A stretch of DNA of 64,000 nt from Novosphingobium sp. 9U (lineage in GTDB: Bacteria > Pseudomonadota > Alphaproteobacteria > Sphingomonadales > Sphingomonadaceae), in contig NZ_LR732469.1 of assembly GCF_902506425.1 (NCBI RefSeq), positions 995,001 through 1,059,000 on the forward strand, read 5' to 3'. Below the pieces are notes generated by a model that did not search any database, had not been told where the DNA came from, and saw only the letters and a list, made by a program, of their open reading frames with translations. Below are positions 57,976 through 58,067 of the stretch, piece after piece. Each line of letters opens with the position of its first letter. Positions within the stretch are counted from its first letter, which is position 1. The position numbers and the translations under genes are program-made.

Positions 57976-58067
57976 GACTCGACATCTTGCGTCGGACTCG
58001 TTCCGTTCGCATCCAAACTCCAGCTTTTCCGGCGAGTCGCCGCTTGACGGCGAGTCCATGAGGACTC
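57976..58067 (+). promoter_or_regulatory. Cluster of five GANTC methylation sites in the ccrM upstream region
   Basis: GANTC sites lie at 57976-57980, 57995-57999, 58034-58038, 58052-58056 and 58063-58067: five in 92 bp where about 0.36 would be expected by chance. A -35-like TTGACG (58044-58049) sits among the last three. GANTC is the target of the CcrM enzyme encoded directly downstream. In Caulobacter, GANTC sites in the ccrM promoter/leader couple transcription to methylation state, so auto-regulation is likely. Confidence 0.75.

Follow-up and report, generated by a model that had tools for sequence, protein, structure and literature searches.

In Caulobacter crescentus, ccrM is transcribed from a CtrA-activated promoter that contains GANTC and is used only when the DNA is hemimethylated, and in the model of the authors who described it, methylation shuts the gene down (passages of PMC2217572). 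GcrA/sigma70 methylated promoters, such as ctrA P1, mipZ, and podJ, carry GANTC in the -35/-10 region. According to sections of a review, GcrA binds sigma2 and recruits RNA polymerase to promoters containing m6A (PMC7403470); the extended word YGAKTCG has been proposed for activation by GcrA (as quoted in part of PMC7987155), and Caulobacter start sites with GANTC between the -10 and -35 elements are activated at 40-60 min (excerpts of PMC4287350). In Agrobacterium tumefaciens, methylation represses the gcrA promoter, which has 6 GANTC sites in 250 bp, and does so in Escherichia coli as well (passages of PMC11514494). An analogous case is that of SeqA on hemimethylated GATC, where efficient binding in vitro needs sites on the same DNA face, whole turns apart (excerpts of PMC5145175). 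Among sphingomonads, GANTC is m6A-methylated in a Sphingomonas (part of PMC8067484), and Sphingomonas melonis can reportedly dispense with ctrA for growth (passages of PMC8116508).

The ccrM promoter analyzed here lies in a 64,000-nucleotide stretch of the Novosphingobium sp. 9U genome (the window, G000:C1:995001-1059000). It shares with its Caulobacter counterpart the gene and the presence of GANTC in the promoter, and 42 of 109 family loci also share a CtrA-type half site (TTAACC-like, which we take to be the CtrA half-site motif) within 60 bp upstream of -35. It differs, in a comparison made by description, in that the patterns used found no such half site in the window from 70 bp before to 30 bp after -35 and that many relatives of the window carry a GANTC array phased by whole helical turns. 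Like ctrA P1, mipZ, and podJ, it has GANTC in the -35/-10 region, and GcrA is encoded in the genome (PF07750 at G000:C1:306583-307224); unlike them, it has two such sites, the second over the -10 element, an upstream array, and a spacer that lacks a full YGAKTCG. The A. tumefaciens gcrA promoter is likewise GANTC-rich, belongs to a gene of the same circuit, and is CcrM-responsive in that organism, but the gene is a different one, and the gcrA loci of relatives of the window show no similar array, with at most 3 GANTC in the 400 bp upstream (22 loci, including two pairs that are halves of one gene). The likeness to SeqA is limited to whole-turn, same-face spacing of sites, as the enzyme and the word are others and no match to SeqA (PF03925) was found in the one genome searched, with a positive E. 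coli control.

That methylation controls ccrM has been proposed before; the GANTC cluster described here is real and has more structure than was first reported. In the titles and passages of the literature searched, no description was found of phased GANTC arrays, of a recurrent -10 overlap, or of a sphingomonad ccrM promoter. To our knowledge, it is not settled by what means the methylation state is turned into a sharp switch. The related loci form a natural series, with promoters that range from 2 to 12 sites and are in many cases phased, in which cooperativity, helical phasing, and reader identity can be tested directly, and the GANTC-over-minus-10 geometry present in many outgroup loci is a sharp, testable promoter signature.

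The ccrM gene and the GANTC sites before it

The preliminary description had taken the gene downstream of the cluster to encode CcrM, and homology bears this out. Residues 28-369 of the 377-residue product match PDB 6pbd ("Modification methylase CcrMI", E 1.1e-153), the product contains the Pfam N6_N4_Mtase and RAMA domains, and the NCBIfam CcrM model is its top match, yet this match is under the cut-off (603 of 830 bits). Coordinates of the gene and of the elements before it are given in Table 1. The gene between rnhB and ccrM encodes a short-chain dehydrogenase (57026-57937) and ends approximately where the distal GANTC site of the family would be; by eye, one related locus (L001) seems to have the end of rnhB directly before the array, and in a Sphingopyxis locus (L064) it seems to be the end of this dehydrogenase gene that precedes the array.

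Table 1. Features of the ccrM locus, in coordinates of the window; offsets are counted from the first T of the -35 hexamer
Feature	Position	Strand	Basis and remarks
Putative dyad operator, half site CACAAgATgTTGAGTC	57942..57994	+	61-locus profile; 20 bp between two GANTC
GANTC site (GACTC)	57976..57980	+	Offset -68; inner edge of dyad right half
GANTC site (GACTC)	57995..57999	+	Offset -49; followed by family-conserved TTYCGTTCC-like block, 58001-58009
GANTC site, context CGAGTCG (YGAKTCG type)	58034..58038	+	Offset -10
-35 hexamer TTGACG	58044..58049	+	First T is lattice zero; TTGAC there in 109 loci
Core GANTC site 1 (GAGTC)	58052..58056	+	Offset +8, in -35/-10 spacer
Core GANTC site 2 (GACTC)	58063..58067	+	Offset +19; last base is first base of -10
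Predicted -10 CATCCT (CANNNT), 17-bp spacer	58067..58072	+	Base conservation; predicted transcription start near 58079
ccrM, GANTC adenine methyltransferase, 377 aa	58103..59236	+	Homology; GGAG at 58093-58096, ATG at 58103

Directly 5' of ccrM there are five GANTC sites within 92 bp, as first described, and three of them surround the TTGACG hexamer, starting 10 bp before and 8 and 19 bp after its first T. The rate of one GANTC per 256 bp, against which this cluster had been judged, is wrong for the genome, where 2078 GANTC were counted in 2,026,400 bp (43.7% of the genome; 1.03 per kb); within the window, there are 63 against a shuffle mean of 274, so the word is strongly avoided. Because the true background is lower than had been supposed, the cluster is more unusual than first claimed: it is the sole case of five GANTC in 92 bp in the 2.03 Mb examined, where the best cluster elsewhere has three, and the Poisson expectation of such clusters is 0.005, a figure that ignores the general intergenic enrichment of GANTC (more than 1.5-fold in the class, according to part of PMC3973325). 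The preliminary description had allowed that many unrelated intergenic regions might be similarly dense, or that the sites might not be conserved in related species; no such density recurs in the 2.03 Mb, and the array is kept in related ccrM loci. In Sphingomonadales, ctrA has been described with 1 to 5 GANTC within 300 bp upstream (excerpts of PMC8116508); a motif search of the 2.03 Mb examined here found no ctrA. Beyond the gene, the intergenic region 59470-59562 has, judged by eye, two inverted similar arms with the look of a dispersed repeat, and contains two GANTC (59489 and 59557).

For comparison within the family, 80 named ccrM loci and 30 whole-genome loci (the best 30 matches of a genus-level search) were collected, and removal of the window itself (L081) and of one duplicate (L097, of L005), followed by addition of the window, gave 109 loci. 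In each, the -35 was chosen as the CTTGACG (else TTGAC) nearest the gene, with GANTC disregarded. Before these removals, all 111 rows (the window plus 110 family loci) had 3 to 14 GANTC from 450 to 60 bp upstream of the FADPPYN codons, a span that includes about the first 28 ccrM codons and is cut short in a few loci; the rest of each locus had 0.0 to 3.1 per kb. From -145 to +25 (∼170 bp), the 109 loci contain 2-12 sites each (median, 7), with pile-ups near -140, -129, -110, -99, -90, -80, -70, -60, -30, -20, -10, +8/9, and +19. There are five or fewer sites in 31 loci, the window among them, and more in the other 78. The array of the window is unmatched in the examined part of the genome, but it is one of the smaller ones of its family and is not dense by that measure. 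A distal GANTC site found in 87 of the 109 loci is absent from the window. In the slots between -45 and -18, the middle base changes from site to site around a fixed GA-TC (GAATC 40, GATTC 30, GACTC 24, and GAGTC 3), which argues that the CcrM target itself is under selection there.

Helical phasing of the family array

Across the family, the alignments place the GANTC sites mostly on a lattice of ∼10 bp, in register with the conserved -35 TTGAC. When 723 family sites were pooled, the best period was 9.85 bp (R 0.75). At 10 bp, a period picked after viewing the data, R was 0.65 for GANTC and at most 0.43 for other palindromic pentamers with at least 10 occurrences. Neighbor spacings (n = 611) fell in the one-to-three-turn bins (9-11, 18-21, and 28-32 bp) 461 times and in the half-turn bins (13-16, 23-26, and 34-36 bp) 10 times, and the other 140, many of them longer, fell elsewhere. 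A register of whole turns asks for a reader placed on a single face of the DNA.

Per-locus tests against random placement used the 78 loci with at least six sites, as 31 of the 109 had too few. In these tests, which together with parsimony lessen the effect of shared ancestry among loci without removing it, phasing had p < 0.01 in 50 loci and p < 0.001 in 23, seven were at the floor of 5e-5, and 28 failed p < 0.01. The ten worst loci (p 0.07 to 0.52) include four Croceicoccus (L008, L010, L011, and L014) and four Sphingomonas (L058, L060, L076, and L079) loci that are unphased (p 0.18-0.52). The five sites of the window are imperfectly on the lattice (R 0.65), and a whole-turn, SeqA-type spacing that holds across the 109 loci holds only partly in the window alone.

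GANTC gains and losses are mainly at lattice positions. By parsimony on a quick CcrM tree (±1 bp), 182 changes were counted over 14 on-lattice positions (-10, -20 ... -140) and 20 over 15 off-lattice positions (-5, -15 ... -145). A conserved upstream block, TTTCGTTCC, was recognized in 83 of the 109 loci. In 79 of them, it sits about 55, 65, or 44 bp from the -35, with at least 17 changes of distance class on the quick tree: spacer length shifts mostly in one-turn (∼10-bp) steps.

Outside the family, the lattice is weak at most. The outgroup was drawn from other families and orders, with 20 of 22 matching same-order genomes plus a class search, in which 103 of 144 genomes matched and the best 30 loci, one of them the window, were taken; from the resulting 49 loci (L111-L159), one that had no anchor (L137) and two of the same family (L131 and L132) were removed, leaving 46. 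In the 39 of these used for the period test, the best period was 6.5 bp (R 0.49); R reached 0.34 at 10.5 bp, and at 10 bp, where the null 99% point is 0.19, it was 0.22. The upstream GANTC of loci L111-L130 favor 6.5/13-bp spacing (e.g. -7, -20, and -46) over 10 bp.

Core promoter and upstream dyad

In contrast to the array, the two core sites are widespread beyond the family. A GANTC occupies the slot of core site 1 (+6 to +10) in 93 of the 109 family loci and in 36 of the 46 from the outgroup, and that of core site 2 (+19/+20) in 86 of the 109 family loci. A GANTC at exactly +19 from TTGAC or TTGAT occurs in 29 of the 46 outgroup loci, against a null mean of 1.5 and a maximum of 6, and 28 of the 46 have two or more sites at core offsets (null mean 0.5, maximum 4); in this comparison, the outgroup -35 was the TTGAC or TTGAT giving the most core sites, and the null repeats that choice and ignores kinship among the outgroup loci, of which some are closely related. 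All 29 outgroup loci with the +19 site have A at +24 and T at +28, the second and sixth -10 positions. Since these two bases are invariant, the -10 element is predicted to read CANNNT, with the last base of a CcrM site as its first base. The family -10 is less regular, because A is kept at the second position in 85 of 85 loci and T at the sixth in only 46 of the 85. An exact TTGAC-N14-GANTCANNNT occurs in 2.03 Mb of the genome only at ccrM. A scan for TATAAT-type promoters found none in the ccrM upstream region, and a terminator scan there found none on the + strand and one weak terminator-like stem on the - strand.

GANTC sites are present between (+8) and at (+19) the -35 and -10 elements of the predicted promoter, as in GcrA/sigma70 promoters. 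The extended YGAKTCG is not matched at either spacer site (cGAGTCc, and tGAGTCc on the other strand) and fits only the site at 58034, 5' of the -35; for this reason, the ccrM promoter is not assigned to the GcrA/sigma70 class, which its geometry resembles.

Farther upstream, many family loci have a dyad of two half sites, CACAAgATgTTGAGTC, and a profile of it was built from the 61 loci with the exact 20-bp spacing. The window has the best match in 1.264 Mb of the genome (score 23.9; next place, 6.5), and the 61 members score at least 39.7. The right half is kept in the window (57976-57994), and the left half has decayed, with GCGCT in place of GAGTC at 57956-57960. A hairpin or structured RNA was considered and rejected. 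Covariation between the dyad arms did not clearly exceed that of shuffled pairings, and no match in 57000-59600 attained the gathering score of an Rfam family, so the dyad is likelier to be a protein operator.

We also compared the CtrA-type half sites with the number of GANTC between -50 and -8. Among the 109 loci, 33 have the half site only, 40 have at least two GANTC only, 9 have both, and 27 have neither. A trade-off of CtrA for GANTC was rejected and is not claimed, because only 9 independent pairs are supported on the tree and these give no significance.

Models for the reading of methylation at the ccrM promoter

Based on these comparisons, we consider it on balance probable that ccrM has a methylation-sensing, autoregulatory promoter that resembles the GcrA/sigma70 class and is joined, in this family, by an array read from one face of the helix. 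The core would be of the sigma70 type, its -10 (CANNNT) weak and its spacer and -10 edge occupied by two CcrM sites, and its activity would be set by the m6A state of these two sites, read most likely by sigma70-bound GcrA. A GcrA/sigma70-type promoter is the best fit because GcrA is present, the -10 is weak, and GANTC lies in the spacer. The preliminary suggestion of methylation feedback, possibly involving GcrA, is supported in part, by the array, its conservation, the GcrA gene, and the two sites in the -35/-10 region. In the family, additional upstream GANTC, spaced by whole turns in step with the -35, would form the array, which GcrA or another protein may occupy cooperatively on one face, giving a steep response to methylation. 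Passage of the replication fork would leave the array hemimethylated and ccrM expressible; as CcrM accumulates, the presumed full methylation of the sites would lower expression again. That the promoter is on when hemimethylated and off when fully methylated is the sign that we infer by analogy, and negative feedback seems the likelier direction because of the precedents of Caulobacter ccrM and the A. tumefaciens gcrA promoter.

Such feedback might not require GcrA, because the A. tumefaciens gcrA promoter is also repressed by methylation in E. coli, where alphaproteobacterial regulators are absent. An alternative that we hold to be unlikely, but not negligibly so, takes this precedent (passages of PMC11514494) at face value: full methylation at the -10 edge and in the spacer would itself hinder RNA polymerase, and the upstream sites would only add marks to be restored after replication. 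In the 29 outgroup loci with a +19 site, core site 2 and the -10 have one base in common, which is what this mechanism would lead one to expect, but the mechanism gives no reason for family sites to stay in ∼10-bp register with the -35 across about 130 bp. That register would be accounted for by a cooperative reader of methylated or hemimethylated GANTC, similar to SeqA in action and of other descent, that would cover the newly replicated array and hold the ccrM promoter sequestered; 461 of 611 spacings fit the same-face, whole-turn requirement of SeqA in vitro (excerpts of PMC5145175), and nothing else in 1.264 Mb matches the dyad profile comparably. Since the genome has no SeqA match and GcrA could serve in this role, we regard a separate reader of this kind as rather doubtful.

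The conservation of individual bases bears on the proposal that the GANTC words are parts of ordinary transcription factor sites and that their methylation is incidental. The distal and dyad slots do mostly hold to a single form, GAGTC or GACTC, and their flanks are conserved, which would fit such a factor, yet the middle base varies at -45 to -18, and partly at the core slots, while GA-TC stays, and GANTC is otherwise avoided in the genome; we give this proposal little credence. It is more improbable still that phased m6A alters DNA curvature, so that the array is a methylation-controlled bend with no protein array on it. Sites one turn apart would be expected to sum any curvature, but conserved blocks other than GANTC in the region suggest that proteins bind there.

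A further reading, which we consider possible but improbable, is that sphingomonad-type ccrM genes carry a phased "methylation ladder" read cooperatively from one face by a GANTC counterpart of SeqA or by oligomerizing GcrA, and that this reader would sequester the methyltransferase gene after replication, which would so time its own expression. Lineages with larger ladders tend to lack the CtrA half site there, although on the tree this trend does not reach significance.

The genome also has seven matches to the Ros/MucR family (G000:C1, C14, C15, C20, and C53), possible competitors of CcrM at GANTC. In addition, TGTGGAT or ATCCACA, which we presume to be DnaA-box-like, occurs downstream of the -35 in 51 of the 109 loci, the promoter of the window not being among them. 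In 24 of the 109 (L005, L007, L017, L022-L024, and others), TGTGGAT is at exactly +28, over the predicted ccrM start, a position from which this motif might tie ccrM to DnaA.
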